From Colwellia psychrerythraea 34H (GTDB lineage: Bacteria; Pseudomonadota; Gammaproteobacteria; Enterobacterales; Alteromonadaceae), in the NCBI RefSeq assembly GCF_000012325.1, contig NC_003910.7, positions 2,604,001 to 2,668,000 on the forward strand: a DNA stretch of 64,000 nt, given 5' to 3'. This document shows positions 1 to 14,364 of the stretch, in pieces. The stretch's first letter is position 1. Each line of letters starts with the position of its first letter. Position numbers and translations under genes: made by a program. The notes under the pieces are model-generated. The model saw only the letters and a program-made list of their open reading frames with translations, was not told where the DNA came from and did not search any database.

Positions 1-66
1 AATGCAGAGTATTTTGTCATAGTGTTAACGTATTTTAGGATGCCAATACCTAGTTGAGCGTTATAC
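1..66 (+). other. attC-like recombination site, right part
   Basis: The end reads GAGCGTTATAC, the R' box form seen at the other spacers, preceded by GCCAATACCTAGTTGA as the left part of the last stem. The beginning of the site lies at or outside the window edge. No gene follows for about 500 bases, so it closes a cassette whose gene lies to the left. Confidence 0.5.
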
Positions 67-575
67 ATAAATTTAAAATATCCTTATAACAAGTTAATAC
101 TACACACTATATATTATGTAAAATAAACAATAATATAACAAGAAGACAACTAAAATAATTGATTAAAAATCAGAGTGTAATATTCAGGATCATGTTTGCT
201 ATAAACTTGTAGGGAATCTCTCTGTATTAAGTGCTTTACCATTAATAAAAGGGGCAGGGATGTTAATTATTAATTGGATTGCCATATATTCTCTGATGAA
301 CAACATGTCATATTACTGAGAAGTCTCAGTAATAACCCGAAAACCATCTGTATTTAATGTAATATATTGATAGTATTAGTAATTGTATTTAATTCTATGT
401 TGGACATTACTGAGACTTCTTAGTAATGCCCAAATACTGAAAATAATAAAATATTTTTAGTATATAAAGCTTTGAAATTATGGGATATTAATGTCAATTA
501 AATAAATATTATGGGGCTGATATTACTGAGAAGTCTCCATAATAAGCTGTTATATAAAACGAGACTGTTCGGTGC
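67..575. other. Non-coding AT-rich stretch with hairpin repeats
   Basis: No convincing gene is seen here. The left half (67-300) is AT-rich and featureless to the eye. The right half carries three spaced copies of a 24-bp hairpin (see the repeat entry) and ends in GCTGTTATAT at about 547-555, which resembles the R' end of an attC. It may be a non-coding cassette or a promoter-bearing spacer in front of the small membrane gene at 576. Confidence 0.5.
311..544. repeat. Three spaced copies of an ATTACTGAGA hairpin
   Basis: Copies lie at 311-334 (arms TATTACTGAGA / TCTCAGTAATA, perfect), 405-428 (one change in one arm) and 521-544 (damaged right arm). Spacing is 94 and 116 bases. The segment from 405 to about 560 is recognisably similar to 43736-43885, including the stretch between hairpins (TTTGAAATTA..GGATATT) and the terminal TGTTAT box. 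The repeat thus occurs at two places, each time just before a small membrane-protein gene. Confidence 0.75.
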
Positions 576-959
576 ATGCATAAATTTTTAAATCGATTAT
601 CACTTCTACTAATAGTTATTGCTTATGCGTTTGGCTATTTTGAAACTCAAAATATAGTTAACGCATCTAACGCATCTAACGCATCCCTACCAATAGAAGA
701 TCTATTTGAGCAGCGTTACCTATTAGAGTTGAAAGTAGGTATGTTTTTATTGTTGCCTTGTTCTTATTGGTCTTATCATTGGTTTAAAACCTTTAAAAAT
801 TGGCCTTCAGATCAAAGTACGACTTTATTTGGTAAAACATTCGCAAATGGAAATAGCTTAATACTTAAATTATTGCTCGGTTCATTTGTTATTCTTGGTA
901 CTTTTTCGCCATGCTTACTTTCATTCTATATGGCGAGTGTATTTAAAAGTTTTATATAA
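576..959 (+). CDS. Small membrane protein, unknown function
   Basis: Predicted 127-residue protein with a hydrophobic N-terminal segment (about 7-22) and two further hydrophobic stretches (about 52-70 and 96-120), so probably three membrane passes. Residues 28-37 contain an N-A-S triplet repeat encoded by three exact copies of AACGCATCT (about 660-686), probably slippage-prone. The gene starts at ATG and ends inside the left box of the next attC. I do not recognise a family. It is plausible as a cassette gene from its size, strand and flanks. Confidence 0.6.
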   Translation: MHKFLNRLSLLLIVIAYAFGYFETQNIVNASNASNASLPIEDLFEQRYLLELKVGMFLLLPCSYWSYHWFKTFKNWPSDQSTTLFGKTFANGNSLILKLLLGSFVILGTFSPCLLSFYMASVFKSFI

Positions 960-1051
960 CAAGTCATTAAAGCAGGAAAAAAGCAGTTGCTTTTGCTCCT
1001 GAATCGCTAATTTTAACCAACTATTTTATTGCCCGCTAATGGGGCGTTATG
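957..1051 (+). other. attC site
   Basis: TAACAAG overlaps the stop codon of the upstream gene. A central imperfect palindrome (GCAGTTG ... CCAACT) follows, and the tail GCCCGCTAATGGGGCGTTAT closes the site. This tail is very close to the end of Vibrio cholerae-type repeats. The next ribosome binding site follows within 10 bases. Confidence 0.85.
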
Positions 1052-1068
1052 TTTTTCTAGAGGTTTGA

Positions 1069-1416
1069 GTGCAATCTAAGTTATTAAAAATCAAATTGAA
1101 TCCCAATTCTCGAAGCCATTTAGATACTTTGATCTCTTATATGCGCGAAAATATTGAGTTTCCAAAAAGTGAAATGGAGCAAAAAGGTTACTTTTGGGAT
1201 TCTGTATTTTATGAAAAAGAAGATAAATTTGAATGCATCTATATCGTTATCAAGTCCGATGATTTTTCTAATATAATGATGGATGAAAGTGAATTAGTAG
1301 TATCTCCTTTTAGAGATGTTTATGAAAAATTTAGAACTACTTGTTGGGCTCCTGGGCCTTATATAGATTTGGAACCGATATTTTGTTTTAATTCATCATT
1401 AACTTTTTCAGGTTAA
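1069..1416 (+). CDS. Hypothetical protein, DUF6176-like
   Basis: 115-residue soluble protein with a GTG start preceded by AGAGG. The N-terminal pattern K(I/L)KLNPNSRSHLDTLISYM, followed by a V/I-rich strand ('FECIYIVIKSDD'), resembles small ferredoxin-like alpha/beta proteins annotated DUF6176. That match is from memory of the family and is moderate. No catalytic residues are apparent. It sits alone between two attC sites as a single-gene cassette. Confidence 0.55.
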   Translation: MQSKLLKIKLNPNSRSHLDTLISYMRENIEFPKSEMEQKGYFWDSVFYEKEDKFECIYIVIKSDDFSNIMMDESELVVSPFRDVYEKFRTTCWAPGPYIDLEPIFCFNSSLTFSG

Positions 1417-1435
1417 AGTAGAGTAATCAAAAGAT

Positions 1436-1511
1436 AATAAGCTGTTCAAGCGGGACAAATTACAATTGTCAGTTTCCACTCTGATCTTGTACCGCTTTGG
1501 AGCACAGTTAT
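1436..1511 (+). other. attC site
   Basis: Short site with AATAAGCTGTTC as left box, stem AAGCGG.ACAA ... TTGT.CCGCTT and right end GAGCACAGTTAT. The left and right boxes (AAGCTG / CACAGTT) pair imperfectly, as expected for a folded attC. Confidence 0.65.
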
Positions 1512-1563
1512 TTAATTGTTACTAAATAGGTTAATCAATGCACAGACGGATTGGAGATAAATA

Positions 1564-2046
1564 GTGAGTTATATAGTTCAAGAAATCAAATCTCAACACG
1601 ATATTCAAGTGTGCGAAATTATTAAACAAGTAGGCAAAGAATACGGTGCTACTGGCGAGGGGTTTGGTCCATCTGATTCTGAAGTTCAAGCGATGAGCCA
1701 GAACTACAAAGATGAAAGCTCTAGCCGCTATATCGTCGCAAGTATAGAAGGGCGTATCGTCGGTGGCTGTGGTATCGCTGCTTTTAATAACAGTAATGAA
1801 ATTTGTGAATTACGAAAATTATTTCTTTTACCAGAAAGCAGAGGTTTAGGTATTGGTAAAAATCTTACCGAAGGTTGCCTTAAGTATGCCAAAAGTAAAG
1901 GTTATAAAAAATGCTATTTGGATACCCTAACAAGCATGAAGTCAGCAATCGCTTTATACGAGAAGTTGGGGTTTAGCCATCTAGATAAGCCACTTCAAGG
2001 TACTATTCATAACGGTTGTGATGTTTGGATGCTAAAAGAGCTTTAG
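1564..2046 (+). CDS. GNAT family N-acetyltransferase
   Basis: 160 residues with the full GNAT fold. The central acetyl-CoA loop is 'LPESRGLGIGKNL' (R/Q-x-x-G-x-G/A, about residues 97-109), followed by the C-terminal 'AIALYEKLGFSHLDKPL' strand. GTG start with TTGGAG 8-9 bases upstream. These enzymes transfer acetyl from acetyl-CoA to an amine; the substrate cannot be read here. Single-gene cassette, one of three GNAT genes in the array. Confidence 0.85.
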   Translation: MSYIVQEIKSQHDIQVCEIIKQVGKEYGATGEGFGPSDSEVQAMSQNYKDESSSRYIVASIEGRIVGGCGIAAFNNSNEICELRKLFLLPESRGLGIGKNLTEGCLKYAKSKGYKKCYLDTLTSMKSAIALYEKLGFSHLDKPLQGTIHNGCDVWMLKEL

Positions 2047-2052
2047 GCGAAG

Positions 2053-2152
2053 CTAACAAGGAGTTAGAGTAGGACTTTTAATAGTTTGCTAGGTTTCTGC
2101 TCAGTAACACATTATAGCCAATCATTATTAAGGCTATTATTTTGGACGTTAT
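2053..2152 (+). other. attC site
   Basis: CTAACAAGGAG starts seven bases after the GNAT stop. The central pairing is weak (AGTAGGACTTT.. / ..), and the site ends AGGCTATTATTTTGGACGTTAT. AAAGGA, the ribosome binding site of the next gene, follows directly. Confidence 0.7.
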
Positions 2153-2171
2153 ATTTTAAAGGACTATCGCT

Positions 2172-2731
2172 ATCATAAAGCTCTACTGTATTTTACCTTG
2201 TGTTTTTCTATTCGCAGGCTGTCAATCAACAGAAAGTAAAAAAGTAGAGGAATCATTCCCTCTAAAAACAATCCCCTCTAACCCAACAATTATTGATAAT
2301 CATGCCTTGGGTAAGTTATCTACAATGCAAGTTCCAATTAAGGAACAAAAAGTAGTTCAATCACCCATCAACTTTTTTAATGAGCATGGTCAGGATATTA
2401 AGAGAAAAGAAAAAGTTAACGACAATGCTTCTCCGTTGTTGAACCAACAGGCCTGTAGAGATAATGTAGAAGTAACTTATCGTGTTATTGACCAAAATGC
2501 AGTGAGTGGAATGTTTCACGCAAAAGTTCAAGCTCAAGGTGTAATACTTTCGTTATCTGATGATCACAAAGATATGAAATTAAGGACTACGGGTGGTTTA
2601 CAAAAAACGTAAATTTACAAAAATGGCAACCGTATTTAAAAAAACCTCCATTAGCAAAAGGCATTTTGTTAAACCTTGGCTCAGAGTTTTGGGACAGCAA
2701 AAGTAATTGGTATGTGTGTGGTGTAAATTAA
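2172..2731 (+). pseudogene. Lipoprotein gene, no standard start and frameshifted
   Basis: Reading from 2172 gives a lipoprotein signal (KLYCILPCVFLFAGC, lipobox F-A-G-C at 2214-2225) and about 145 residues in frame. There is no ATG, GTG or TTG between the in-frame stop at 2157 and the signal; only ATC (2166, 2172) and ATA (2175) lie behind the AAAGGA box at 2158-2163. The frame closes at 2610-2612, directly after a run of six A. Reading back one base in that run continues for 40 residues (NLQKWQPYLKKPPLAKG...) to a stop at 2729-2731. That tail has clear protein character. The gene is either decayed, read by slippage, or carries an assembly error. A later TTG at 2307 would remove the signal peptide and is unlikely. 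No family recognised. Confidence 0.6.
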
Positions 2732-2744
2732 AATGTAACCAGTT

Positions 2745-2831
2745 GTTAAACAGGCAAAAATATAGTTGGCTTTTACTCTTTCGTCACTTATTCTAACCAA
2801 CAATATTTACCCTGTTAACAGGGGGTTATAA
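2745..2831 (+). other. attC site
   Basis: GTTAAACAGGC opens the site, AAATATAGTTGG pairs with CCAACAATATTT, and CCCTGTTAACAGGGGGTTATAA closes it. Stem complementarity is among the best in the array. Confidence 0.8.
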
Positions 2832-2852
2832 CTCTATCGGATATCGAAATAT

Positions 2853-3278
2853 ATGAATCTCGTCGTAACTACTTCACCTACGCAGGAAGATCTTAAAGCA
2901 TTAAGTGTTGGTATTGGGTCTTATAATAAAGATTACCTACCTGACGAAGTTGGTTTTGAAAAAGATACCAAATTTGCTGTCATTGCTAAAGACGCAAATG
3001 GAAAAGTCTTAGGAGGCATTAGAGCCAATGCATTCTGGAACTACTGCACGATTGAATTGCTTTGGTTATCTGAAGAAACTAGGGGCTTAGGGCTAGGTAC
3101 TAATTTAATGGAAGCAGCTGAAAACTTTGCTAAAGACAGAGGGTTTGGCTACATGCGAACTGAAACACTTAGCTTCCAAGCTAAACCTTTCTATGAAAAG
3201 CTAGGTTACAAAGTATTTGGTGAGTTACCTGATTATCCAAAAGGTCATACAACATATTGTTTAGTAAAAAAACTATAA
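2853..3278 (+). CDS. GNAT family N-acetyltransferase
   Basis: 141 residues. Acetyl-CoA loop 'SEETRGLGLGTNLMEAAE' near residue 74, and a C-terminal 'FQAKPFYEKLGYKVFGELPDYPKGH' typical of GNAT motif B. ATG start right after the attC. It is similar along its length to the GNAT at 11199-11612 ('FQAMPFYEKHGYK...DYPKTG'), so two related acetyltransferases occupy separate cassettes. Substrate unknown. Confidence 0.85.
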   Translation: MNLVVTTSPTQEDLKALSVGIGSYNKDYLPDEVGFEKDTKFAVIAKDANGKVLGGIRANAFWNYCTIELLWLSEETRGLGLGTNLMEAAENFAKDRGFGYMRTETLSFQAKPFYEKLGYKVFGELPDYPKGHTTYCLVKKL

Positions 3279-3333
3279 CAAGTCGCTAGCATTTCAAAGT
3301 GGTAAAGGTGTAATTTTTAGTTTAGCGTTATAG
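3274..3333 (+). other. attC site, short
   Basis: TATAACAAGTCGC covers the stop codon of the GNAT, and TTTAGCGTTATAG closes the site 60 bases on. The central stem is short compared with neighbours. The terminal boxes are good. Confidence 0.7.
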
Positions 3334-3360
3334 TAATTATTGATTTAAGGTGAAGTCCTA

Positions 3361-3759
3361 ATGAATAAAATTATTGAAACTATTTTAATTTTACTACTTT
3401 TAAGTGTGGCTTACTCATCTAAAGCGGATGAGCCAGCAAAATATAACAAGATACTATTTAAAAGCTTTATTTCTGAAAAAGACGGTAAGGATGTTCAAAT
3501 TAGGGAAGCACTTTTTCCTCCTAAATGGAAAGCTCCTCGTCACTATCACAATAGCAATTTATTTATATATGTTATTGAAGGTGAGTTTGAAGTAGAACTC
3601 GAAGGTAGCAAAAAAATCACTTATCGAAAAGGTGAGGCTCTTCAAATGAATTCAGGCATAGAAATGGAGGCGCGTAATCCAAGTAATGAAAACTCATTAA
3701 AGTTGGCAGTATTTCAAGTTGGTAATCCTGATGCCGCATTTGTTGTACCAGTAGAGTAA
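3361..3759 (+). CDS. Exported cupin-domain protein
   Basis: 132 residues with an N-terminal signal peptide (about 1-22, ending ..AYSSKADE) and one cupin barrel. Motif 1 is visible as 'PPKWKAPRHYHNSNLFIYVIEGEFEVELEG' (metal ligands H57, H59 and E70 by pattern) and motif 2 as 'ALQMNSGIEMEARNPS', in which the usual His is missing. Probably a periplasmic small-ligand or metal-binding protein. ATG start with AAGGTG upstream. Cassette gene. Confidence 0.75.
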   Translation: MNKIIETILILLLLSVAYSSKADEPAKYNKILFKSFISEKDGKDVQIREALFPPKWKAPRHYHNSNLFIYVIEGEFEVELEGSKKITYRKGEALQMNSGIEMEARNPSNENSLKLAVFQVGNPDAAFVVPVE

Positions 3760-3765
3760 TCTACT

Positions 3766-3862
3766 GCTAACAATACCTTCTAACGGACAAAAAAGCTGTT
3801 GGTTTTTTCGTCCCTCAACATTTTTAAAACAATATTCTTTCCCTTTATTAGGGAACTAAGTA
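3766..3862 (+). other. Degenerate attC-like site
   Basis: TCTAACGGACAAAAAAGCTGTTGG pairs loosely with the right part, and the tail CCCTTTATTAGGG has the normal stem. The right box is ACTAAGT instead of GTTATR. It is probably inactive or weak. Confidence 0.5.
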
Positions 3863-3875
3863 ACTAAGGAAAGTT

Positions 3876-4349
3876 ATGTATATTTGGAAGATATCACCAT
3901 TAATTGAACAATTAAAATCTGACAGTTTAAGTCAAAAGGAGCAATTGAAGTACTTTTTAACTTATAGCGTCCTAATGATTATTGCTTCAGAACTACCTTT
4001 ATCTGTTTATTTAGATTATGGATTCTATGACGCAGTCAATACTGTATCTATGAGTATATTGACTATTGTTGGAATTACTTATTGTTATAAAGTTAACAAA
4101 TCAATTGATGATAAAGATTTTATTCTTAGGTTTGTAACCATAGGATTACCGGTTACTTTACGTTTATTAGCGCTATTAATTGTTGTTGGTATTCTCTTTG
4201 GAGTAGTTGACGCAATTTTTATTGAATCCTCTTACTTAGATGAAAGTGATACTTATCAAACAACACCTGTAGACGTTTTATTTACAGGTATTTTACTATT
4301 CGTTTATTACTATTATTTTGCAAGTAAACTAAAACTCTTTGCTAAATAG
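3876..4349 (+). CDS. Membrane protein, unknown function
   Basis: 157 residues with about four hydrophobic segments (roughly 29-48, 57-72, 89-113, 130-150) and a short charged N-terminus. ATG start with AAGGAAAG upstream. No motif that I recognise. Flanked by two degenerate attC sites, so it probably arrived as a cassette. Confidence 0.55.
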   Translation: MYIWKISPLIEQLKSDSLSQKEQLKYFLTYSVLMIIASELPLSVYLDYGFYDAVNTVSMSILTIVGITYCYKVNKSIDDKDFILRFVTIGLPVTLRLLALLIVVGILFGVVDAIFIESSYLDESDTYQTTPVDVLFTGILLFVYYYYFASKLKLFAK

Positions 4350-4360
4350 TAGCTTAACAA

Positions 4361-4448
4361 GAATTTAAAGCCGGACTGTTAACCGTTTTATCTGTTTCGT
4401 TCCGCTTCGCATTTTGTTGAACTATAAATCAGCCTCACGGAGAATGTT
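4361..4448 (+). other. Degenerate attC-like site
   Basis: CTTAACAAG opens the spacer 12 bases after the stop. The stem and the closing box (GAATGTTGTGA) deviate strongly from the consensus. Called mainly from position. Confidence 0.35.
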
Positions 4449-5009
4449 GTGAAAGTAATACTATTAATAACTATCTTCTTGTCATTCTATTCAAGTGCAG
4501 AAACTATCGTTGTAGAAGATACTTTATTTTATGAAGTAGCCCCAACATCTAAGGATGACTTATTGGAAACTTTGAATAGCAGCTCACCAATCAGAGAAGA
4601 TGGTAATGTTTTTCATGGTTACACTAAATATGAAATTAACTGGCGATTTTGGTGGAAATCAAATAATAATCAATGTGCTTTTACTAAGGTCGAAACAACA
4701 CTGAAGTTAAAATATACGATGCCTCAGCTTACATCTTCAAAGTCAGACGTTAACGTTGTTTGGTCTAATTGGTATCCCAATTTGGAGAAACATGAAAAGG
4801 GACATGGGAAGTTAGCGAAAGATACTGCATTTAAAATAGAGAAAGATTTACTTTCTATTGGTCCTAAAGCCAATTGTAATCTATTAGAAAAAGCGGGAAA
4901 TAAATTAGCATATAAATTAATGGCTACATTAAAAAAAGCTAATAAGCAGTATGACATCAAAACCAACCATGGTGAGACTCAAAATGCTTGGTTATATTTG
5001 CATTTGTAG
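4449..5009 (+). CDS. DUF922-type exported Zn-dependent protease
   Basis: 186 residues with a signal peptide (1-17, cut near SSA-ET). The metalloprotease signature HEKGH lies at residues 115-119, within 'NLEKHEKGHGKLAKDTA', as in the DUF922 family of predicted secreted peptidases. GTG start preceded by GGAG. Substrate unknown; location periplasm. The next attC-like spacer follows directly. Confidence 0.75.
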   Translation: MKVILLITIFLSFYSSAETIVVEDTLFYEVAPTSKDDLLETLNSSSPIREDGNVFHGYTKYEINWRFWWKSNNNQCAFTKVETTLKLKYTMPQLTSSKSDVNVVWSNWYPNLEKHEKGHGKLAKDTAFKIEKDLLSIGPKANCNLLEKAGNKLAYKLMATLKKANKQYDIKTNHGETQNAWLYLHL

Positions 5010-5014
5010 CATTT

Positions 5015-5116
5015 GTAGCATTAATGGCTCAGTCATTACTTTGGTTAACCGTTGGCTAGCTTCCGCTTCTGACATTTTAGTCACGCATTTCAAGCCTGTT
5101 ATATAGGCGCTAGGGC
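5015..5116 (+). other. Degenerate attC-like site
   Basis: The tail GCCTGTTATATAGGCGCTAGGGC keeps the last stem, but its core box is GCTAGGG where GTTAGGC is expected. GGTTAACCGTTGGCTAGC supplies the left part. Confidence 0.45.
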
Positions 5117-5133
5117 ACTAAGAAGGTTAGGTT

Positions 5134-5520
5134 ATGAAATTTATCATTGCTATTATTTTTTCTGTATTTTCATTAAGTGCATCAGCTGAAGATGGTTTAA
5201 TTACTCAATTTGTTATAACCAAAGTCGTTGATGGTTCAAATACCAAGCATAGTTATAATAACGCTGTATTAGTAAACTTTAATGACGTTCATTCGTTCGA
5301 TTTTAAAGGATTATATTCATTAAAATTAACTACTCGAACCGAAGACTATAAGAAAGTTAATGTATTAATAAACCTAAAGGATTTATCAACAGGTAAGCCT
5401 TATTATGTTGGTGGACGTGCTACAGATTTGACTGTAGGTGAGAGTACAAATTTCAATTTTAACCGTGACGGTATTACTTACACTGTGGATATTGATACGT
5501 CATATGGTAAGTTGCCCTAA
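5134..5520 (+). CDS. Exported hypothetical protein
   Basis: 128 residues. Clear signal peptide (1-18, FSLSASA-ED), then a beta-rich domain with alternating hydrophobic residues. No cysteine or catalytic motif is visible. ATG start with AAGAAGG upstream. No family recognised. Cassette gene. Confidence 0.6.
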   Translation: MKFIIAIIFSVFSLSASAEDGLITQFVITKVVDGSNTKHSYNNAVLVNFNDVHSFDFKGLYSLKLTTRTEDYKKVNVLINLKDLSTGKPYYVGGRATDLTVGESTNFNFNRDGITYTVDIDTSYGKLP

Positions 5521-5524
5521 GAAG

Positions 5525-5607
5525 AACATCAAACGGAAAACATAGTTAGTCTTTTTCGTTTCCAAATTTAAGCTAACTATTATTTGCTGCTTAACGTGGC
5601 GTTAAAC
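5525..5607 (+). other. attC site
   Basis: AACATCAAACGGAAAACATAGTTAG pairs with CTAACTATTATTT across the middle, and CTGCTTAACGTGGCGTTAAAC closes it. The core GTTAAAC fits the GTTRRRY consensus exactly. Confidence 0.8.
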
Positions 5608-5689
5608 ATTAGTGTTAGCCACTATGAGTGGACATCTCAATGTTAGATTATGTCTAGTATTTAGGTGATACATGACTAAGGAGAATTCA

Positions 5690-6286
5690 GTGAAAATTTA
5701 TGGAGATATTCAATCAGGGAATTGTTATAAGGTAAAACTTCTTACTTCACTTTTAGATATTGATCATGAGTGGATTGAAGTGGATATCTTAGCAAGTGAA
5801 ACTCAAGCAGAGTCATATTTAAAAAAGAATCCAAATGGCAAAATACCATTACTTGAACTAGATGATGGAACATTTATTTCAGAATCAAATGCAATTTTAA
5901 ATTATCTTGCAGCGGGGACTTCATTAGTTGGTACGTGTCGTTTTACCACTGCTAAAGTCCTACAATGGCAATTCTTTGAACAGTACAGTCATGAGCCTTT
6001 TATAGCAGTTGCTCGATTTATCGCCAAATATTTAGGATTACCTGAAGAGCGTAAAGCGGAGTATGAAGCTAAGCAACTTGGTGGACATAAGGCGCTTAAA
6101 GTAATGGAAGAACAATTACAATGTAGCCCTTATCTTGTTGGTTCTGAATTAACTATTGCTGATATATCATTATATGGTTATACACATGTGGCTGATGAAG
6201 GGGGATTTGAACTGTCAGAATACCCATCAATTCAACAATGGATTGCTCGTATTCAAGCTAATCCTAAGTACATAGGTATGGAATAA
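5690..6286 (+). CDS. Glutathione S-transferase family protein
   Basis: About 198 residues. The N-terminal thioredoxin-like domain carries 'NGKIPLLELDDGTFISESNAILNYLA', where the cis-Pro and the E-S pair bind glutathione. The C-terminal helical domain has 'YLVGSELTIADISLYGYTHVA', the conserved N-capping box. I prefer the GTG at 5690 because AAGGAG lies 6 bases upstream; an ATG at 5672 has no such box. Conjugates glutathione to electrophiles, or acts as a peroxidase; substrate unknown. Cassette gene. Confidence 0.85.
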   Translation: MKIYGDIQSGNCYKVKLLTSLLDIDHEWIEVDILASETQAESYLKKNPNGKIPLLELDDGTFISESNAILNYLAAGTSLVGTCRFTTAKVLQWQFFEQYSHEPFIAVARFIAKYLGLPEERKAEYEAKQLGGHKALKVMEEQLQCSPYLVGSELTIADISLYGYTHVADEGGFELSEYPSIQQWIARIQANPKYIGME

Positions 6287-6292
6287 TAGGTA

Positions 6293-6386
6293 TTTAACAA
6301 GCCATTTTGATGAACAATAAACAGTTTATTGTTTCGTTTCTAAATATTTTAGCAAACAACATTTGCCTTTAATTGGGGCATTGTAT
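6293..6386 (+). other. attC site, altered core
   Basis: TTTAACAAGCC opens the site shortly after the GST stop. AGCAAACAAC pairs partly with the centre, and TGCCTTTAATTGGGGCATTGT closes it. The core reads ATTGT rather than GTTAT. Confidence 0.65.
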
Positions 6387-6402
6387 TTTAAGGTTTTGTA
6401 TC

Positions 6403-6741: not shown

Positions 6742-6752
6742 ATTATGACAAA

Positions 6753-6841
6753 AAAACTAACAGGATACATAACCGATGGTTGTTGTTTGTGCGTCACATA
6801 TTCAACCTGCTATTATTTGCCGCTTTACGTGGCTTAGGTTT
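6753..6841 (+). other. attC site, altered core
   Basis: AACTAACAGG starts the site, GGTTG pairs with CAACC in the middle, and TTTGCCGCTTTACGTGGCTTAGGT closes it. The core looks like GTTAGGT with the G replaced by C. Confidence 0.65.
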
Positions 6842-6844
6842 CTA

Positions 6845-7833: not shown

Positions 7834-7942
7834 TTACAATAGTATAAGCTGCTATATAGATTTTAAGTGCTTATACATCTTCATTTAAACCTTTTATTAC
7901 TTTGATGCATCTAAACTACAAATTTATTTATTAAGGAAAATA

Positions 7943-8695
7943 ATGAAATACTTAACTTCTATTTTATTTATAACAATATTATTAATTTCATTTAGTTCAA
8001 CTGCGACGCCACCGAAAAAGATTTTAATTATTGCATCAAACATCATTGATATGGGGGATGCTGAAAAGCATGATGCAAGAAATAACTTATGGGAAGTAGC
8101 CCCTCCTTATCATATTTTCTTAAGTCATGGTTATGAAGTTGATTTTGTTTCTCCTAAAGGAGGGCGGGTTGAATTCATGATGGATCCTCTAGGGATCAGT
8201 AGCTATACCATAAAATATGAAGGTTTTTTAGATAAAGCTAATAACTCTTTAGCTCCCAAGCAAGTTATTACCGATAATTATTGGGGGGTATATATTGGTG
8301 GCGGTTATGGTCCATTGTTTGATGTTGCTAACAACAAAGAGTTGCAGTTAATTATTGCTAAAATTTATGAAGCAAATGGTGTTGTAGGTTCAGGAGGTCA
8401 CGGAGCAGGTTCTTTTGCTAATGTGACTTTATCTTCTGGTCAATTTCTAGTTAAAGGTAAAAGAGTTGCTGGTTTTCCTGACTCAACTGAAAAGTCTAAA
8501 CCATGGGCAAAAGAAGGTAGTTTATTACCTTTCTTAGTTGAAAGTCAGTTGAATAAAAACGGTGCTATTGCACAAAATAAAAAAACGTTAAAAGATAAGT
8601 ATGAGGTGGTAGTTGATCAACGAATTGTTTCTACAATGTTTTTACCGTCAGCAGCGCACGTAGCTAAAGAAATGATAATAGTAAACAAACAGTGA
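7943..8695 (+). CDS. Exported DJ-1/PfpI-like protein lacking catalytic Cys
   Basis: 250 residues with a signal peptide (1-21, SSTA-TPPKK). It carries the class I glutamine amidotransferase-like fold of DJ-1/PfpI: 'VDFVSPKGGRVEFMMDPLG', 'GVYIGGGYGPLFD', 'FLVKGKRVAGFPDSTEK'. At the nucleophile elbow the usual A-x-C-H-G is GSGGHGAG, with G152 where the cysteine should be; H153 is kept. The protein is therefore unlikely to have the usual glyoxalase or chaperone chemistry. A shorter exported relative lies at 25445-25801. Confidence 0.8.
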   Translation: MKYLTSILFITILLISFSSTATPPKKILIIASNIIDMGDAEKHDARNNLWEVAPPYHIFLSHGYEVDFVSPKGGRVEFMMDPLGISSYTIKYEGFLDKANNSLAPKQVITDNYWGVYIGGGYGPLFDVANNKELQLIIAKIYEANGVVGSGGHGAGSFANVTLSSGQFLVKGKRVAGFPDSTEKSKPWAKEGSLLPFLVESQLNKNGAIAQNKKTLKDKYEVVVDQRIVSTMFLPSAAHVAKEMIIVNKQ

Positions 8696-8900
8696 TGGTT
8701 TGTCCTTTGTTCCTAGAGTAACTTACCAAATTCTGGTAGATAAAAAGTCGGTATAAAAGCGGATTCCAAAAGTTAAATACAACAGGTCGTTCACATGGCC
8801 CAAGTTGAGCCTCTCAATTAAGTGTTAGTTGTAAGTATGGAATAATTCACACAAAAATTATAACTTTACACTATGCTTAATAATTTAGAGAGGATATAGA

Positions 8901-9299
8901 ATGAATAAAATATTAATGGTTTTGTTGGTTGTATTATCAGTATCAGGTTGTGCAGGTCTTGGCGTTGCTACGGTTGGCGCTGTGATGTATTACAAGAGTC
9001 AAAATCATGAAGTGGCGTCAGTTGACATAGAAGCCCCTAGTGAAAATATTTATAGAGCTGTACTTAAGAGGGTGGAAGGAAATTCCAGCATAGTTATTAT
9101 AAACAAAGATGATTCTGCTATGTTGCTTGATTTACGTCAAAATGGAAACGATGGCAGCATTAAAGTCACGGCATTAAACGCTAAAGTTTCTCAATTAACA
9201 ATCACCTCTGGACTCACTTCTGACAATGAATCAACGCCATTAATGGCGGTATTGAAAATATGCAAAGATTTAAACGTTGAGTGTAAGCAAAGTCAGTAA
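8901..9299 (+). CDS. Small lipoprotein, DUF3568-like
   Basis: 132 residues. Lipoprotein signal 'MNKILMVLLVVLSVSGC' with lipid-modified C17, followed by a Gly/Ala-rich 'AGLGVATVGAVMYY' segment and a small alpha/beta domain ('VDIEAPSENIYRAVLKRVE'). This resembles DUF3568 lipoproteins. AGAGGA upstream of the ATG. The 200-bp spacer in front holds GTGTTAGTTG at about 8821-8830, possibly the end of a decayed attC. Confidence 0.65.
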   Translation: MNKILMVLLVVLSVSGCAGLGVATVGAVMYYKSQNHEVASVDIEAPSENIYRAVLKRVEGNSSIVIINKDDSAMLLDLRQNGNDGSIKVTALNAKVSQLTITSGLTSDNESTPLMAVLKICKDLNVECKQSQ

Positions 9300-9431
9300 A
9301 GCGCATAACAATTAATTAAATATGACTAACAAATGACAAAATACTTGGAGTTTCATTTCTAGATAATAACGAATTGATAATGAAAGAAACTCCTAACTCC
9401 TTCGCACAAAGCATCCGCTAACTAAGTTCTA

Positions 9432-9722
9432 TCAGTTCTCTCTACGCAATTTAAGCAACCAGGAAGTGTGGTTTCTCTCTGCATCATAAAACACGGCCAT
9501 GGTGAAGAAAAACATGAGTAATAATATGATGTGTGCTGCTAGGCTTATCCCAAAGTAGATGATACTGCCGAGATAGGCCGCAAATGCTCCGCTCCACATA
9601 AGTGCTAGGATTGTCATAATATAGAATCTACTGACTGGGTCAGGAATATGTCTCAGTGGGTTTTTGCTAGAGTCAAAAATATATTTGTAGTAATCGTATA
9701 TCTGAAGTGCAAATTTTTTCAT
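9432..9722 (-). CDS. Small two-pass membrane protein, unknown
   Basis: 96 residues with two hydrophobic segments (about 34-55 and 58-78) between charged ends; C-terminus 'ERNHTSWLLKLRREN'. It is the only minus-strand gene inside the cassette array. A GAGTTTC / GAAACTC inverted repeat at about 9350-9393 lies between it and the upstream + gene and may end both transcripts. An AAAGAGAG-like box precedes the ATG. No family recognised. Confidence 0.55.
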   Translation of the reverse strand: MKKFALQIYDYYKYIFDSSKNPLRHIPDPVSRFYIMTILALMWSGAFAAYLGSIIYFGISLAAHIILLLMFFFTMAVFYDAERNHTSWLLKLRREN

Positions 9723-9883
9723 GACAAGCTCTCTTTGTTAATTGTCTCTCTTATTAATGTACGGTAGCTTTTCGCATTTGGATTGGTATTGCGCTATGTA
9801 TCTCCACATTTTGCAAATATTCTCCAGTCTCAGTGTTAAATTATTTAGCTGTTAACACATAACAAATTAAGCAAGGAGTGTAG

Positions 9884-10087
9884 TGGGGCTTAGGTATTGT
9901 GTTGTTTGTACTTAGTCTTATTAGTGGTTTATCAAGAGTGTTTGGTGGAATCCATTTTCCTCTCGACATTTTAGCTGCTATTTCAGTCGCAATGTTTTTA
10001 TCCTTGGTCGTATTTACATTACGTAACAAAACCAGTTACTTATTAAATTATTTTGTGGAGAAAAGCTCTAATAATAAAGTAAACTAG
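9884..10087 (+). pseudogene. Truncated PAP2 phosphatase, C-terminal part
   Basis: The open frame encodes 'SGLSRVFGGIHFPLDILAAISVAM', which is motif C3 (S-R-x5-H-x3-D) of PAP2-type lipid phosphatases, followed by a last membrane segment. Motifs C1 and C2 and all earlier helices are absent: a TAG stop lies in frame at 9881-9883, and the sequence upstream (CACATAACAAATTAAG) looks like a cassette spacer. The fragment probably arose by deletion or by recombination at the spacer. GTG 9899 is the only plausible start. Confidence 0.7.
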
Positions 10088-10166
10088 GACACGTACCTGA
10101 AGCTACGCTTCATCTTGTTAAACCCTTCTAATCGACTAAATTTTGCCTATTCTGACGGGCGATATA
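10085..10166 (+). other. Degenerate attC-like site
   Basis: The spacer keeps the tail TTGCCTATTCTGACGGGCGATATA. The core is CGATATA where GTTATA is expected. The left box is unclear. Confidence 0.4.
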
Positions 10167-10203
10167 TGGTTGGAATATAGGACTCTCTAATAAAGGAATA
10201 TAT

Positions 10204-10437
10204 ATGGATCTATTAACTCAAAATAATATCGAATCAGTTGTAAAAAAACATTTAGGGTTTGCAATGTTTTTAGCAATGGTCCCTATTGTTTTTATAAAAA
10301 GTATTGAATTTTTTTCTGGTGGAAATCAACTTGATTCATTATTGATTTTATTAATGCCGTTAAGCATTGTAGGTGCATGTGGGCATTTTATTCAATGTGT
10401 TTTAATTGATTTGGCTGTTACTAATAACACAGAATAA
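10204..10437 (+). CDS. Small membrane protein, unknown
   Basis: 77 residues with two hydrophobic segments (about 19-34 and 46-70). AAAGGA lies 7 bases before the ATG. No motif recognised. Short spacer-flanked gene, consistent with a cassette. Confidence 0.5.
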   Translation: MDLLTQNNIESVVKKHLGFAMFLAMVPIVFIKSIEFFSGGNQLDSLLILLMPLSIVGACGHFIQCVLIDLAVTNNTE

Positions 10438-10519
10438 GCGCCACTTTTCTACACCATTTTAGTAAAACCTTAATAGCTTCATAAATGGGTATTGGTTGCG
10501 AAATAATCGGGTTTAGTAT

Positions 10520-10590
10520 GTGCTTTAAATGACAATTATGTCTCGTTTTTTCTTTTTCAAACAACTGTCTATTAAAAGGTTATTAAAGGC
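10520..10590 (+). other. Weak attC-like spacer
   Basis: GACAATTATGTCTCG ... CAAACAACTGTCTATTAAAAGGTTATTA has a right half resembling an attC (AGGTTATTA). Pairing is poor, so this is a low-confidence call. Confidence 0.25.
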
Positions 10591-10601
10591 TTTTACAACA
10601 T

Positions 10602-10991
10602 ATGCTAAATATTCTGTTAATACTTCCGCCTGTTATTTCAATGGCACACGTTTTTTTATCAATAATATTATATTTATTTGATATTCAATACTCTGGGAAT
10701 TTATTAATTCTTTTTAGTTTACCAATAATAGTGGTGACTTCTATTCATATTTATATTGCGATCTTTGATTACTCTCTATCTAAAAGCGAGCATATTGGCT
10801 ATGCACTTATTCACATTCCATTCTCAATTACTTTTTCTTTTCTAGCTCTACTCTTTTTTATTCCTAAGGATAATGGACAAGTTGATGCATCGAGCAAATT
10901 TAAAGATACTTTATTACAATGCGTAGATATAAGAGAAGCAGAGTGTTTGAAGAACTTGTATCTACGTAAAAACTCGGTTATAAAAAACTAA
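10602..10991 (+). CDS. Membrane protein, unknown
   Basis: 129 residues with three to four hydrophobic segments (about 2-24, 32-52, 65-90) and a cysteine-containing hydrophilic tail ('LLQCVDIREAECLKNLYLRK'). ATG start. I recognise no family. The 207-bp spacer after it shows no clear attC. Confidence 0.5.
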   Translation: MLNILLILPPVISMAHVFLSIILYLFDIQYSGNLLILFSLPIIVVTSIHIYIAIFDYSLSKSEHIGYALIHIPFSITFSFLALLFFIPKDNGQVDASSKFKDTLLQCVDIREAECLKNLYLRKNSVIKN

Positions 10992-11198
10992 AATAGGGCA
11001 TGCAGCAGTTGACTATGTTCCACTTAGATAGACATTTAACCAATCTCATATTTAGTCAGTTGAAGGAGTTTATCTTGGGTACATCAATTAATCATTCCAA
11101 TAAAATGAGTATTAAGCCGATACTTTAAGCTGATTGATAACTTGTAGAGCAGAAATATAACAAGTAAATTAACAAATAAAAGATAACCCGGAGTATTA

Positions 11199-11612
11199 AT
11201 GAATATTGAAGTAGTAGAAAACCCAGAGCAAGAATTAATTGATTATCTGAATAAACAAATTAGTGACTTCAATTGGGCTAATTGGGAAGTAAGCGAACGA
11301 ATCCCCTTAGCCGTACAAATTAAAAGTGATGAAGGTGAGGTTATTGCTGGTGCTGCAGCTCGTTCATTTGGCAATTGGTTATTATTAGATACATTGTGGG
11401 TTTCAGATGAATTACGTGGCCAAAATATAGGTAGTAAAATTCTCAAAGAGGTAGAAGCGTTAGGTAAAAAACGCGGGTGTATAAAATGTCTTTTAGATAC
11501 GCTAAATTTTCAAGCAATGCCTTTTTATGAAAAACACGGCTATAAAACTGAGTGGATACAACAGGATTATCCTAAAACTGGTTGTAAGTATTTTATGGTT
11601 AAAGAGTTATAA
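11199..11612 (+). CDS. GNAT family N-acetyltransferase
   Basis: 137 residues. Acetyl-CoA loop 'SDELRGQNIGSKILKEVEAL' (about residues 69-88) and C-terminal 'FQAMPFYEKHGYKTEW'. CCCGGAG lies 8 bases before the ATG. It is a diverged relative of the product of 2853-3278. Substrate unknown. Confidence 0.85.
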   Translation: MNIEVVENPEQELIDYLNKQISDFNWANWEVSERIPLAVQIKSDEGEVIAGAAARSFGNWLLLDTLWVSDELRGQNIGSKILKEVEALGKKRGCIKCLLDTLNFQAMPFYEKHGYKTEWIQQDYPKTGCKYFMVKEL

Positions 11613-11624
11613 TTAGCTCTTGTA

Positions 11625-11705
11625 GTTATAACTAACAATGCGTTTAAACGTTCAAAATGTAGTTGGTTGTTCTATCAATTTTTACCTCTTTATGGGACCT
11701 TATAT
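11625..11705 (+). other. attC site, altered core
   Basis: TATAACTAACAATGCG opens the site, ATGTAGTTGG sits in the stem, and CCTCTTTATGGGACCTTATAT closes it. The core is CTTATAT instead of GTTATAT. Confidence 0.65.
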
Positions 11706-11708
11706 ACC

Positions 11709-12182
11709 ATGAAAATACTTGTGTTAATGTTAACTGTTTTGTCTTTTTCCTGCTTTGCAGAGATTGATCTTGTTAAAATTGATAAATCTGAACGCAGAAT
11801 GTATTTGCTTGAAAATGGAAAAACAATTAAAGAATATCATGTTGCTTTTGGTGAAAATCCGAAAGGGCATAAAGAAAAAGAAGGTGATGAAAAAACACCA
11901 GAAGGTATTTACATATTAGATTACAAAAAGGAAGATTCATCCTTTTATCGTGCAATGCATATTAGTTACCCTAATCAAGCCGATTTAGATAATGCAAAAA
12001 TAAAAGGCTTTTCAGCAGGAGGCTTAATTATGATTCATGGACAACGAAATGAGCTTGCTGGGGTTTCAGCATTTACGCAGCGGTTCAATTGGACAAATGG
12101 GTGCATCGCATTAACGAACTCAGAAATGGATCAATTTATGTCTTTGGTAAAAGTAGGTACAAAAATCCATATAGAGTGGTAA
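11709..12182 (+). CDS. L,D-transpeptidase, YkuD family, exported
   Basis: 157 residues from ATG 11709 (a longer frame would begin inside the attC). Signal peptide 1-17 (SFSCFA-EID). The YkuD domain follows: 'LVKIDKSERRMYLLENGKTIKEYHVAFGENPKGHKEKEGDEKTPEG' is split here by position 25-66, with catalytic 'MIHGQ' (H110) and 'NWTNGCIALTN' (C132). Such enzymes make or edit 3-3 cross-links in peptidoglycan, or attach lipoproteins to it. The S/T-x-G-C pattern is TNGC rather than the usual SHGC. Cassette gene. Confidence 0.85.
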   Translation: MKILVLMLTVLSFSCFAEIDLVKIDKSERRMYLLENGKTIKEYHVAFGENPKGHKEKEGDEKTPEGIYILDYKKEDSSFYRAMHISYPNQADLDNAKIKGFSAGGLIMIHGQRNELAGVSAFTQRFNWTNGCIALTNSEMDQFMSLVKVGTKIHIEW

Positions 12183-12183
12183 A

Positions 12184-12285
12184 GGGCATATAGCCATTGA
12201 TTTAAGCGGGCCTTGTGACCCTTGGCTAGTTTTCGTTCCACTAGCCTAATAGCCAATTATTTTTCCTCTTAGGGGGCCGTTATAT
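12184..12285 (+). other. attC site
   Basis: GCATATAGCCATTG opens the site, CTTGGCTAGTTT pairs loosely with CACTAGCC in the middle, and TTTCCTCTTAGGGGGCCGTTATAT closes it. An AAAGGA box follows. Confidence 0.7.
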
Positions 12286-12303
12286 TTAAAGGATTAAATA
12301 CAT

Positions 12304-12564
12304 ATGTCATTTTTAAAATCATTCTTCATCTTTTTAGTGCTTTGGTTAAGTGGTTGTAGTTCAAACCCCAATTACTATGAACCCAAAAATTGTGGCTCTG
12401 CAACTCCAGTATGTTTAGCCATAGCAGGCGTTGCAAATATGGCTACTCATGATAGTGGACCTTCAAAAAAGTGCTCTGATATGACAGGTGAAAGAAGAGA
12501 ACAGTGTATGGCGAAAGTTGATTCGTTAAAAAAGCACATTAAAGATGCGAGTGAAAACAGATAA
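12304..12564 (+). CDS. Small lipoprotein, unknown
   Basis: 86 residues. Lipobox 'WLSGC' with C18; four further cysteines lie in the mature part (NCGSATPVC..KKCSDM..EQC), so disulfides are likely. ATG start with AAAGGA upstream. No family recognised. Cassette gene. Confidence 0.65.
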   Translation: MSFLKSFFIFLVLWLSGCSSNPNYYEPKNCGSATPVCLAIAGVANMATHDSGPSKKCSDMTGERREQCMAKVDSLKKHIKDASENR

Positions 12565-12569
12565 GGTAA

Positions 12570-12650
12570 ATCAATGTGATGCCCAACAGTAGTTGCTGAA
12601 CGTACGTCACTATTTTAGTCAACCTATAAAAGCCCTTCAGTGGGCCGTAG
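12570..12650 (+). other. attC site, altered core
   Basis: The centre carries AACAGTAGTTGC and TAGTCAACCT. The tail AGCCCTTCAGTGGGCCGTAGAG has the normal stem with a CGTAGAG core. Confidence 0.6.
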
Positions 12651-12698
12651 AGTGTTAGTGTCACCTAGATACTACCTATTTTTAAAATGGAGCATGGA

Positions 12699-12935
12699 AT
12701 GCCAAAACAAAATATTATTATTTTTCTTCTCACCCTTATATTAAGTGGTTGTGCATCAAACTCAGCGTTAAACAAGAAAGCCGACAATGATGAAAAGGCT
12801 GGTGATTATTATGAATCTATAGGACAGCCTGAAGCAGCTGAAAGATCACGTAAAATGGCTCAGGATAACCGTGATGATTCATTGAGTGTTGAAGCGATTT
12901 TAGTCGATCTATTATTTAGGAAAGATGATAAATAA
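12699..12935 (+). CDS. Small lipoprotein, unknown
   Basis: About 78 residues from ATG 12699, chosen because GGAG lies 6 bases before it; an in-frame ATG at 12687 has no box. Lipobox 'LILSGC' with Cys about 18. The mature part is charged and helical ('KADNDEKAGDYYESIGQPEAAERSRKMA' spans about residues 27-54). No family recognised. Cassette gene. Confidence 0.65.
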   Translation: MPKQNIIIFLLTLILSGCASNSALNKKADNDEKAGDYYESIGQPEAAERSRKMAQDNRDDSLSVEAILVDLLFRKDDK

Positions 12936-13036
12936 CAATAATTTACATCATAAATCATTAATAGGGACTCAATACGAGTTTGGGTTATGCAGCTCAATTT
13001 CAGTCCCTTTTATTTAGCCTTAATGAGGCCTTAGGA
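12936..13036 (+). other. attC site, altered core
   Basis: AATAACAATAA follows the stop codon. AGGGACT ... CAGTCCC form the stem, as in Vibrio repeats, and TAGCCTTAATGAGGCCTTAGG closes it with CTTAGG in place of GTTAGG. Confidence 0.7.
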
Positions 13037-13050
13037 AAATAAGAGAGGAT

Positions 13051-13665
13051 ATGGATTATTTAATCGCAATTGTACTGTTTGCAATCTCATCGTCAGTTAC
13101 TCCTGGTCCAAACAATATTACGATTATGGCTTCTGGTGTCAATTTTGGTATTCGTAGAAGTATGCCATTATTTTTGGGGATCTGTGTTGGGTTTGCCGTA
13201 ATGTTACTGCTTGTCGGTATTGGTTTTGGGCAGATCTTTGAAAAAATTCCTACTTTACATATCTTTATAAAATTTATTGGTACCTTGTATTTACTGTATT
13301 TAGCTTTTTTAATCGCTACGGCTGATGAAATAACTATGTCAAATACTCCAGCCAAGCCGTTAACTTTCATGAAAGGCGCTTTGTTTCAATGGTTGAATGC
13401 AAAGGCTTGGGTGGTAGCAACGGGAGCAATAGCTGCGTTTACAACCGTTGGTGTAGATTTTTACACCCAAAATATCATCATAGCCTTAACATTTTTGGTT
13501 ATCTCGTTTCCTTGTGTAGGTATTTGGTTGTTTTTCGGATCAACGTTGAAAAAGCGACTTAAATCTAAACAACACCGGAAAGTGTTTAACTATTCTATGG
13601 GGGGATTATTAGTTATATCAGTAATCCCTGTAATAAAAGAATTGAGTGTTCAACTTACCCAATAA
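13051..13665 (+). CDS. LysE/RhtB family exporter
   Basis: 204 residues with five to six membrane segments. The family signature 'SSVTPGPNNITIMASGVNFGIRRSM' is at residues 14-38, followed by 'GALFQWLNAKAWVVATGA' near residue 109. Members export amino acids such as homoserine, threonine or lysine; the substrate here is not readable. ATG start with GAGAGGA upstream. Cassette gene at the distal part of the array. Confidence 0.88.
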   Translation: MDYLIAIVLFAISSSVTPGPNNITIMASGVNFGIRRSMPLFLGICVGFAVMLLLVGIGFGQIFEKIPTLHIFIKFIGTLYLLYLAFLIATADEITMSNTPAKPLTFMKGALFQWLNAKAWVVATGAIAAFTTVGVDFYTQNIIIALTFLVISFPCVGIWLFFGSTLKKRLKSKQHRKVFNYSMGGLLVISVIPVIKELSVQLTQ

Positions 13666-13667
13666 AA

Positions 13668-13756
13668 AAATAAAGTAGGGAATAAAAGCAGTAGGTTATG
13701 TGCTGTTTTAACAATTAACTAAACGATACTTTAATTTGTTATTTTGGGTGTTAGTT
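13668..13756 (+). other. attC-like site
   Basis: GTAGGGAATAAAAGCAGTAGG opens the spacer, AACAATTAACTAAACG sits in the middle, and TTTTGGGTGTTAGTT closes it. The core GTTAGTT fits, but stem pairing is modest. Confidence 0.5.
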
Positions 13757-13773
13757 AGAAAGGAATCACAAAA

Positions 13774-14271
13774 ATGCTAAATCGTATAATTATTCTAATG
13801 ATCGCAATGACGTCACTAAATATTAATGCCGAGACGGTATTGGAACTAGGCGAATACCCACCTAATTATTTAGGTCGTGATGTTAATGGCAACGATGTTA
13901 CGTTAGAAGATAATAAGGGAAAAATTGTCGTTATATCTTTTTGGGCTTCTTGGTGTTCACCATGTTTAAAAGAACTTCCTATTTTAGAGGGTATCCAAAA
14001 CAAAGTTGGAGACGACAAAGTTAAAGTTGTTGCTATAAACTTTAAAGAAAATAGTAAACAATATCGTCGCATTAAAAATAAACTGTCCACTTTAAAATTA
14101 ACGCTAACACATGATAAACGTGGTGCTATAGGTAAAAAATTTGGCGTTAAGGGTATTCCAAATTTATTTATTGTTGGTAAGGATGGTAAGCTTTTATTTC
14201 ATAAAATTGGTTATGGTGCATCATCAATAAATAAAATAGTAAAAGTGTTAAATGAAGAGCTTGCAAGCTAA
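13774..14271 (+). CDS. TlpA-like exported thioredoxin
   Basis: 165 residues. Signal peptide 1-19 (LNINA-ET). The redoxin domain has 'VVISFWASWCSPCLKELP', active cysteines C61 and C64 (W-C-S-P-C), and a cis-Pro loop 'FGVKGIPNLFIVGKDGK'. Reduces disulfides in the periplasm, as TlpA/ResA proteins do. ATG start with AAGGAA upstream. Last clear cassette gene on the + strand before the TetR gene. Confidence 0.85.
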   Translation: MLNRIIILMIAMTSLNINAETVLELGEYPPNYLGRDVNGNDVTLEDNKGKIVVISFWASWCSPCLKELPILEGIQNKVGDDKVKVVAINFKENSKQYRRIKNKLSTLKLTLTHDKRGAIGKKFGVKGIPNLFIVGKDGKLLFHKIGYGASSINKIVKVLNEELAS

Positions 14272-14364
14272 TAATACCTTCAAAAGGATTAAAAACTGTT
14301 GCCTGTTTTCGTTTCTTAATTATTAAAGTTCAGTATTATAAGGCACTTTACGTGGGCGTTAGCA
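14272..14364 (+). other. attC site
   Basis: CTAATAATACCTTCAAAAGG opens the site, and AGGCACTTTACGTGGGCGTTAGCA closes it with a GTTAGCA core. It ends two bases before the stop codon of the convergent tetR-type gene, so this is probably the right-hand limit of the compact array. Confidence 0.75.

Follow-up and report, generated by a model that had tools for sequence, protein, structure and literature searches.

An integron cassette array without an integrase and with an attI-like leader in Colwellia psychrerythraea 34H

A run of small genes lies at the left end of a 64,000 bp stretch of the Colwellia psychrerythraea 34H chromosome, referred to here as the window (positions 2,604,001-2,668,000 of a single contig of 5,373,180 bp). 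A first-pass annotation, made from the letters alone, had read window positions 1..14364 as an array of cassettes separated by attC sites, with no integron integrase gene (intI) present, and offered two explanations, namely the distal part of a chromosomal integron or a CALIN (cluster of attC sites lacking an integron integrase). What is new here is that the window array has an attI-like leader of its own. It also belongs to a set of about 22 dispersed clusters and is located at the breakpoint of an inversion.

attC sites and the missing integrase

The covariance-model check for attC sites proposed by the first-pass annotation was run with a model, R1, that was built from attC arrays adjoining intI in relatives and includes no site from 34H. 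A regular expression gave 110 sites, reduced to 45 by exclusion of near-duplicates; 41 of these were of 105 bp or less, and 40 were aligned. The letters AACAA and GGCGTTA are set by the expression and so cannot vary in this set, while most of the pairing is free of this constraint. RNAalifold assigned 25 pairs to this set, and at least one compensatory change was found in 17 of them. In the window, R1 gave 17 matches at E<=10, all on the + strand, namely 14 within 955-14362 (10 of them at E<0.01, where the annotation had named fewer than three sites as its refutation), two at 44181-44600 and one weak match at 46411. At E<=1, R1 found no match in eight control loci of 34H (L018-L020 and L022-L026, 160 kb). 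A second model, R2, was trained on 34H's own matches and is circular for these sites. It gave 17 + strand sites of at least 19.7 bits in the array, the strongest hairpins scoring on the - strand too as mirror images, and four matches, with a top score of 17.9 bits, in 16 control loci of 34H (292 kb). Rfam had no match in the window at gathering scores. The sites are imperfect hairpins with conserved R boxes and compensatory changes, as expected of attC, and the window stretch is confirmed as a genuine integron cassette array.

By direct reading, the array contains 24 open reading frames (ORFs) on the + strand and one small ORF on the - strand (9432-9722). Spacers between ORFs are 82-240 bp, except for one of 599 bp after ORF 15. 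As about 7 of the 24 spacers lack a recognisable site, the window array is decayed. Those spacers, and a hand-written palindrome scorer that was dropped because it separated the array poorly from the remaining window and from shuffles, could be taken to favour unrelated small genes with palindromic terminators between them, and no integron at all. That explanation has to contend with an independent model that matches the array 14 times out of 14 on one strand, with the compensatory changes in 17 of the 25 pairs, and with the resemblance of the window array to arrays adjoining intI in relatives. We consider it almost certainly wrong, and in our view it is refuted by the R1 result.

The integron integrase model TIGR02249, which has a curated cut-off of 265 bits, was used to search the whole 34H genome and gave three matches, none above the cut-off. 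The best (158.6 bits) covers residues 184-314 only and is a 393-bp relic at 4,197,959-4,198,351, 1.58 Mb from the array; the other two are weak. Because matches at the same E-value level were found in all 14 control genomes, with none above the cut-off, only the cut-off counts, and it was passed by 56 of 79 genomes (34H included in the 79). About 95 kb to the left of the array there is a broken tyrosine recombinase, which matches the general PF00589 profile and is absent among the TIGR02249 matches.

The attC sites are dispersed over the genome. R1 gave at least 101 matches at E<=10 (150 of 2710 candidates scored), and R2, applied to the fetched pieces of 34H, gave 140 matches at E<=0.3, or 110 without overlaps, in 22 clusters of which four are single sites. 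Relatives with an intact intI also have attC at many places; at E<=0.01 there are at least 97 matches in G045, at least 55 in G036 and at least 42 in G011, and the remaining six genomes in that search have at least 2-17 each. An attC match at E<=1e-6 was found in at least 50 of 59 family genomes (70 candidates scored per genome). With no intI above the cut-off, the sole clear trace 1.58 Mb away and about 110 dispersed sites, the evidence supports a CALIN and not the distal part of an integron, so that only the second explanation of the first-pass annotation stands; its statement that no intI is present also holds. Two or more attC sites are clustered here and no integron integrase is nearby, as in a CALIN, and the intI adjoining the array that marks a complete (sedentary chromosomal) integron is absent.

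Orientation relative to replication was not relied on. If the origin is assumed to be at position 0 and the terminus is placed at a GC-skew flip seen in sampled pieces near 2.73-2.74 Mb, 16 of 22 clusters run in the direction of the fork (two-sided p 0.052). Two of the dispersed loci have phage-like neighbours by PHROGs. At L115 (own-genome 368-388 kb), the array adjoins genes for a replication initiation protein, an excisionase and a CI-like repressor and, at L133 (own-genome 892-906 kb), a tyrosine integrase and a Cox-like excisionase.

Leaders at the heads of arrays

The right end of the array is at 14,358, in agreement with the first-pass annotation, and the left end is not at the window edge. 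Cassettes start at 550 and are preceded by a leader of about 270 bp (279..552, + strand, type T1), while positions 1-278 are non-coding and mostly common to relatives. The leftward search that the annotation had recommended for intI and attI thus found no intI, and the attI-like leader turned out to be inside the window. The leader contains two palindromes, P1 (313-332) and P2 (407-426), at -225 and -131 of a core, and a half-palindrome that together with the core reads CATAATAAGCTGTTA (538-552), with the crossover at G549^T550.

A strict core motif, CATAATAA[AG][CT][TG]GTT[AG], occurs 16 times in the scanned pieces of the 34H genome (13 T1 and three T2 leaders), and in all 16 cases an attC site is found 244-1919 bp downstream on the same strand. 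In 16 control loci (584,000 strand-bases), the motif was not found. When up to 2.5 kb next to each cluster end was considered, it was present in 11 of 22 5' flanks (shuffle mean 0.010), in none of the 22 3' flanks and in none of the 22 5' flanks on the opposite strand. A looser leader expression recovered the same 11 clusters, plus four control matches.

Seventeen T1 copies, 13 from 34H and four from relatives, were aligned. In 34H, a TTACT..AGTAA palindrome lies 131-134 bp upstream of the core in 9 of the 13 T1 copies and a further palindrome lies 224-238 bp upstream in six; two copies have none by the pattern used. When four leader copies were each compared to ten others, alignments started at -259 to -293 (long) or at -24 to -172 (shorter), and most stopped 14-16 bases past the core start, which is the crossover, with one pair continuing to 21 and one ending before the core. 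For the window leader and its best-matching copies, homology extends from about -259 to +14 to +16 of the core start. The 34H leader thus ends at the G^TT cassette edge, and no intI adjoins a leader in 34H. Co-variation of P2 and the half-palindrome in 16 leaders exceeds that in shuffles (51 of 10,000 reach the observed value), and this is weak evidence because related leaders share both. A search of plasmids with the leader gave no real match (2 records, 16% of the query).

In relatives, the strict core was found in 6 of 40 fetched intI loci, located between intI and the cassettes and 219-332 bp from intI, and a variant of the core was found at the same distance in 3 more of the 40. The consensus of the LexA box, the mark of an SOS-controlled intI promoter region, is CTGT-N8-ACAG. 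A LexA-like box is present at the far edge of the intI-adjacent leader in all six of the relatives' loci, and five remote leader copies of relatives also keep it. The stretch of about 208 bp between the LexA-like box and the crossover is found again in G011 at two remote arrays that lack intI, with 98.1% and 96.7% identity and no match past either edge. A leader, in one case the variant, was found in 10 of 20 tested 5' flanks of remote arrays (3 of 6 in G011, 0 of 3 in G036 and 7 of 11 in G045). G045 belongs to another genus, and its T1 leaders closely resemble those of 34H. These positions and similarities suggest that the leader is an attI used in trans.

A T1 leader core (6750-6780) and an attC (47.9 bits) were also seen in L256 (IMGVR_UViG_2617271292, 7631 bp), a record filed as viral that has filamentous-phage-like genes and, by eye, a Zot-like ORF; it may be a phage plus host flank. 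In an array of G011 (seen at L058 7944-9300), an element that by eye has an IS110-like transposase is present three times, and the copy that was read interrupts an attC site. IS1111-attC elements interrupt attC sites in the same manner.

History of the array and an inversion

The window locus was compared to those of C. demingiae ACAM 459 (G038), C. psychrerythraea isolate T18 (G032), C. psychrerythraea ND2E (G026) and an uncultured Colwellia metagenome-assembled genome (G007). Comparison to C. demingiae shows conserved gene order and purifying selection in the 3' part of the array (5.67-14.3 kb) and turnover in the 5' part. Of the 16 ORFs concerned (ORFs 10-24 and the - strand ORF), 15 have C. 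demingiae orthologs, in unchanged order and with no stop in the aligned stretch. The ratio of nonsynonymous to synonymous substitution rates (dN/dS) for these orthologs is 0.03-0.37 (median 0.12), as calculated by Nei-Gojobori for one genome pair and with ORF 21 cut by a piece boundary; for five flanking genes it is 0.00-0.43. We infer that the 3' part is domesticated. None of ORFs 1-9 is found at the equivalent locus of C. demingiae. Homologs of ORFs 5, 7 and 8 are in three other C. demingiae arrays (dS 0.36-0.56). In a whole-genome DNA search of C. demingiae, ORF 3 matched contig C25 with 74% identity, and ORFs 1, 2, 4, 6 and 9 had no match at E<=1e-15. ORF 6 has an 87% match in G007 and ORF 5 an 88% match in G024. 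The first-pass annotation had named perfect synteny of all these genes in distant relatives as a finding that would speak against it; in relatives, synteny is confined to the 3' part.

Of 87 cassettes tested over the whole genome, with 22 edge cassettes and one more left out, 37 have a homolog among the C. demingiae array loci that were fetched; 25 of these were flagged as colinear with a neighbouring cassette, and 12 stand alone. Cassettes of the colinear kind are mainly towards the 3' ends of arrays, at 2267, 2604, 2852 and 3256 kb; the exception, at 3256 kb, is a pair located together in a different C. demingiae array. A two-cassette block (4130387-4131348 in 34H, L169 in C. demingiae) with a truncated last attC and different surroundings was rejected as evidence for IntI, as crossover points are not at both its ends.

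The intI relic is common to 34H and C. demingiae and, as the alignment was read, is truncated at an identical 5' junction in both, which dates the death of this intI to before their separation; the C. demingiae relic retains 96 bp more, and there are small length differences too. A second intI may have been lost later.

The comparison also shows that a segment of about 243 kb (2,609.7-2,852.8 kb) is inverted in 34H and that its two ends fall within arrays of opposite orientation, that of the window (array A) and array B. All four relatives that could be aligned on both sides (G038, G026, G007 and G032) have the GGDEF flank of the window array, then an array or remnant, and then the 34H segment 2,853-2,846 kb in reverse, and in 34H this segment (2,846-2,853 kb) adjoins array B. 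G027 aligns over the GGDEF gene only and is uninformative. At the window locus, what looks like a truncated leader precedes an attC half or attC in C. demingiae and G007, and G032 has only an attC half. A single C. demingiae array holds a cassette that in 34H is part of array B (2,854 kb) together with the 3' part of the window array, and at the end of C. demingiae contig C6 the outer flank of array B is followed by an array; C6 and contig C3 are neighbours by inference only. From the order of the flanks in relatives and this mixed array, it follows that two arrays exchanged ends in the inversion.

A 1.3-kb element is present in five arrays (own-genome 1727813, 1956308, 2986115, 3102631 and 3261413) and is about 98-99% identical to a C. 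demingiae copy, which is in a cassette spacer, at the equivalent of window 7840-7849. It was considered as mediator of the inversion and, in the comparison made, gave no match in array A or B of 34H.

In gene content, the window array begins with cassette 1 (550..1046, + strand), which consists of an ORF at 576-959 (127 aa, no Pfam match) and an attC at 955-1050 (R1 63.9 bits, E 4e-13). The remainder of the array is also on the + strand, apart from the one ORF, and domain names are Pfam matches. The turned-over 5' part (1047..5600) comprises ORF 2 (DUF6176, 1069-1416), ORF 3 (GNAT, 1564-2046), ORF 4 (2307-2612), ORF 5 (GNAT, 2853-3278), ORF 6 (cupin, 3361-3759), ORF 7 (3876-4349), ORF 8 (DUF922, 4449-5009) and ORF 9 (5134-5520). 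ORF 4 looks frameshifted, and the reading seems to run on in another frame (stretch 2307-2731) to the attC at 2734. The attC sites of this part, found with R1 and R2, start at 1433, 2052, 2734, 3766 (R2 only), 4353, 5023 and 5516.

The frozen 3' part (5601..14358), colinear with C. demingiae contig C3, comprises ORF 10 (GST, 5672-6286), ORF 11 (6403-6741), ORF 12 (His phosphatase, 6845-7390), ORF 13 (Mpo1-like, 7528-7833), ORF 14 (DJ-1/PfpI-like, 7943-8695), ORF 15 (DUF3568, 8901-9299), ORF 16 (PAP2 fragment, 9899-10087), ORFs 17 and 18 (starting at 10204 and 10602), ORF 19 (GNAT, 11199-11612), ORF 20 (YkuD, 11709-12182), ORFs 21 and 22 (small and lipoprotein-like by eye, starting at 12304 and 12687), ORF 23 (LysE, 13051-13665) and ORF 24 (TlpA/redoxin, 13774-14271). 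The opposite-strand ORF within it (9432..9722, -) encodes 96 aa and has a dN/dS of 0.04. Its attC sites, from the same two models, start at 6293, 6747, 7386, 10979 and 11631 (both R2 only), 12189, 12946, 13707 and 14267. The last (14267..14362, R1 30.2 bits, E 8.2e-5) has its crossover at G14358^T14359, and a TetR gene on the - strand (14366-14911) follows directly. To the left of the array, ORFs judged by eye are glyA, sox-like genes, purU and the GGDEF gene.

A second small array of the same kind, fresher than the main array, is in the window at 43737-44600 (43871..44600 on the + strand, counted from its leader core). It has two cassettes and its own leader (core 43871-43885, palindrome upstream at 43737-43756), and its attC sites are at 44181-44276 and 44503-44600 (R1 85.9 and 78.0 bits). 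A rearrangement is marked by this locus too, as in G032 (contig C110; L211 and L218), compared to window 42.3-46.8 kb, the two sides of this array have opposite orientations and are separated by about 107 kb. Window 46411-46498 holds a single decayed attC-like site (R1 10.6 bits, R2 24.7 bits), and the matching stretch in L208, L212 and L218 has sites of about 30 bits (R1).

Origin of the leaders and known systems

We consider it probable that the leaders are an attI platform that was formerly served in trans and is now fossil. Each leader would be a double-stranded attI landing site without an intI of its own, and an integrase with its gene at another place in the genome would have inserted cassettes at the leader G^TT, giving the arrays old 3' ends and young 5' ends. 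The sole clearly traceable intI would have been lost before 34H and C. demingiae separated. Thereafter, arrays would have been inherited passively, kept where a cassette gene is useful (here the 3' part) and reshuffled only by rare recombination between arrays. More tentatively, and with the odds somewhat against it, the platform could be part of a distributed integron. A leader of 200-300 bp, bounded by the LexA box of the intI promoter and the crossover, would have been copied without intI to many places in Colwellia and at least one other genus of the family; one integrase would serve all copies in trans, each copy growing its own array, oppositely oriented arrays would become inversion points around the terminus, and 34H would be the end state after the death of the integrase.

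Several observations weigh against an attI platform served in trans. The strict leader is absent from the 5' flank of 11 of the 22 clusters of 34H, none of the 16 leaders of 34H has a LexA-like box, and none of the three remote arrays tested in G036 has a leader. The link between leader and attI rests on few intI types, given how few of the fetched intI loci have the core or its variant. No clean empty site was found; at the second array (43.6-45.3 kb) and C. demingiae L172, which were checked, the flanks align, with other DNA in the gaps. In C. demingiae, arrays are cut off by the ends of several contigs, and 5' parts missing there may in part be assembly gaps; absence at the window array is better covered, by contig C8 and the whole-genome DNA search. 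Cassettes with homologs in another C. demingiae array would, had they moved after the relic was fixed, need another integrase, homologous recombination or differential loss.

Each array could instead be the remnant of a separate complete integron, its own intI later deleted up to the promoter, with the leaders being the attI of dead integrons. There are at least two leader types near different intI (T1 by a 414-bit intI in L084, T2 by a 467-bit intI in L058), a T1 leader of G011 and an intI fragment (residues 1-102) are separated by 331 bp, as are the leader and the complete gene in L084, and the LexA-like box on the five remote copies of relatives is part of the intI promoter. However, the whole 34H genome has one clear trace of intI, not 16, and three leaders are at or within one 9-kb array (1688889, 1690060 and 1695305). 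Moreover, the two remote copies in G011 have the same left edge at the LexA box and 97-98% identity, with no intI homology beyond, which independent deletions would hardly give. We regard separate integrons as unlikely. Less likely still is one former large integron, broken by inversions, with single cassettes also put at non-attI (attG) sites by IntI and the resemblance of the leaders of minor importance. An inversion with both ends inside arrays would fit such breakage, the alignment to contig C3 of C. demingiae likewise breaks off about 1.5 kb from the single attC at 2749 kb, leaderless clusters and the four single-site clusters exist, and attG insertion in other bacteria is mentioned in the excerpts of PMC12444791 and PMC12901181. 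Breakage of one integron cannot yield 16 leader copies, however, and dispersed arrays hold their place in C. demingiae, at 2267 and 2577 kb directly and at 2988 and 3256 kb via flanks at contig ends.

By insertion at attG, as Loot et al. are said to have described in 2024, cassettes are placed at chromosomal sites without intI, reportedly with no need for a conserved leader, whereas 34H has a repeated leader of about 200-300 bp. According to the excerpt of PMC9024848, CALINs are about as common as complete integrons (2961 versus 2760) and are treated as degraded remains, and attI sites outside class 1 are poorly described and undetected by IntegronFinder 2.0. The window array shares with that class an attC cluster with no intI nearby, and differs in that 34H has about 22 clusters in one chromosome, half of them with an attI-like leader in the 5' flank. 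In Xanthomonas, CALINs away from ilvD, at seven loci over species with more than 10 genomes, are likewise attC clusters without intI at several chromosomal loci, intI having been lost in some lineages and the content frozen; attI copies and an inversion between arrays, as seen in 34H, are not mentioned in the excerpt of PMC12444791. The delta-attI gene cassettes of class 1 and 2 integrons are a partial attI away from intI inside arrays, to which the internal leaders of 34H at 1690060 and 1695305 look comparable. In the excerpted text of PMC12901181, however, an attI piece replaces the attC behind a gene in one integron, while in 34H a whole leader heads arrays at many places. An inversion inside an array is also known from the Vibrio cholerae superintegron, where, in the excerpt of PMC11023631, it arose by homologous recombination between IS3 copies within one array, with integrase loss as a stabilising outcome; the inversion in 34H involves two arrays about 240 kb apart. 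Among the literature matches listed, no description of attI copies at CALINs or of Colwellia integrons was recognised.

The leader is a short sequence and is directly testable for recombination. The window array also offers a datable case of the fate of cassettes after the death of an integrase, with the older end under purifying selection and the younger end turning over. If many CALINs carry their own attI, they would be landing sites for any integrase acting in trans, and the integron would be a genome-wide network and not one locus.

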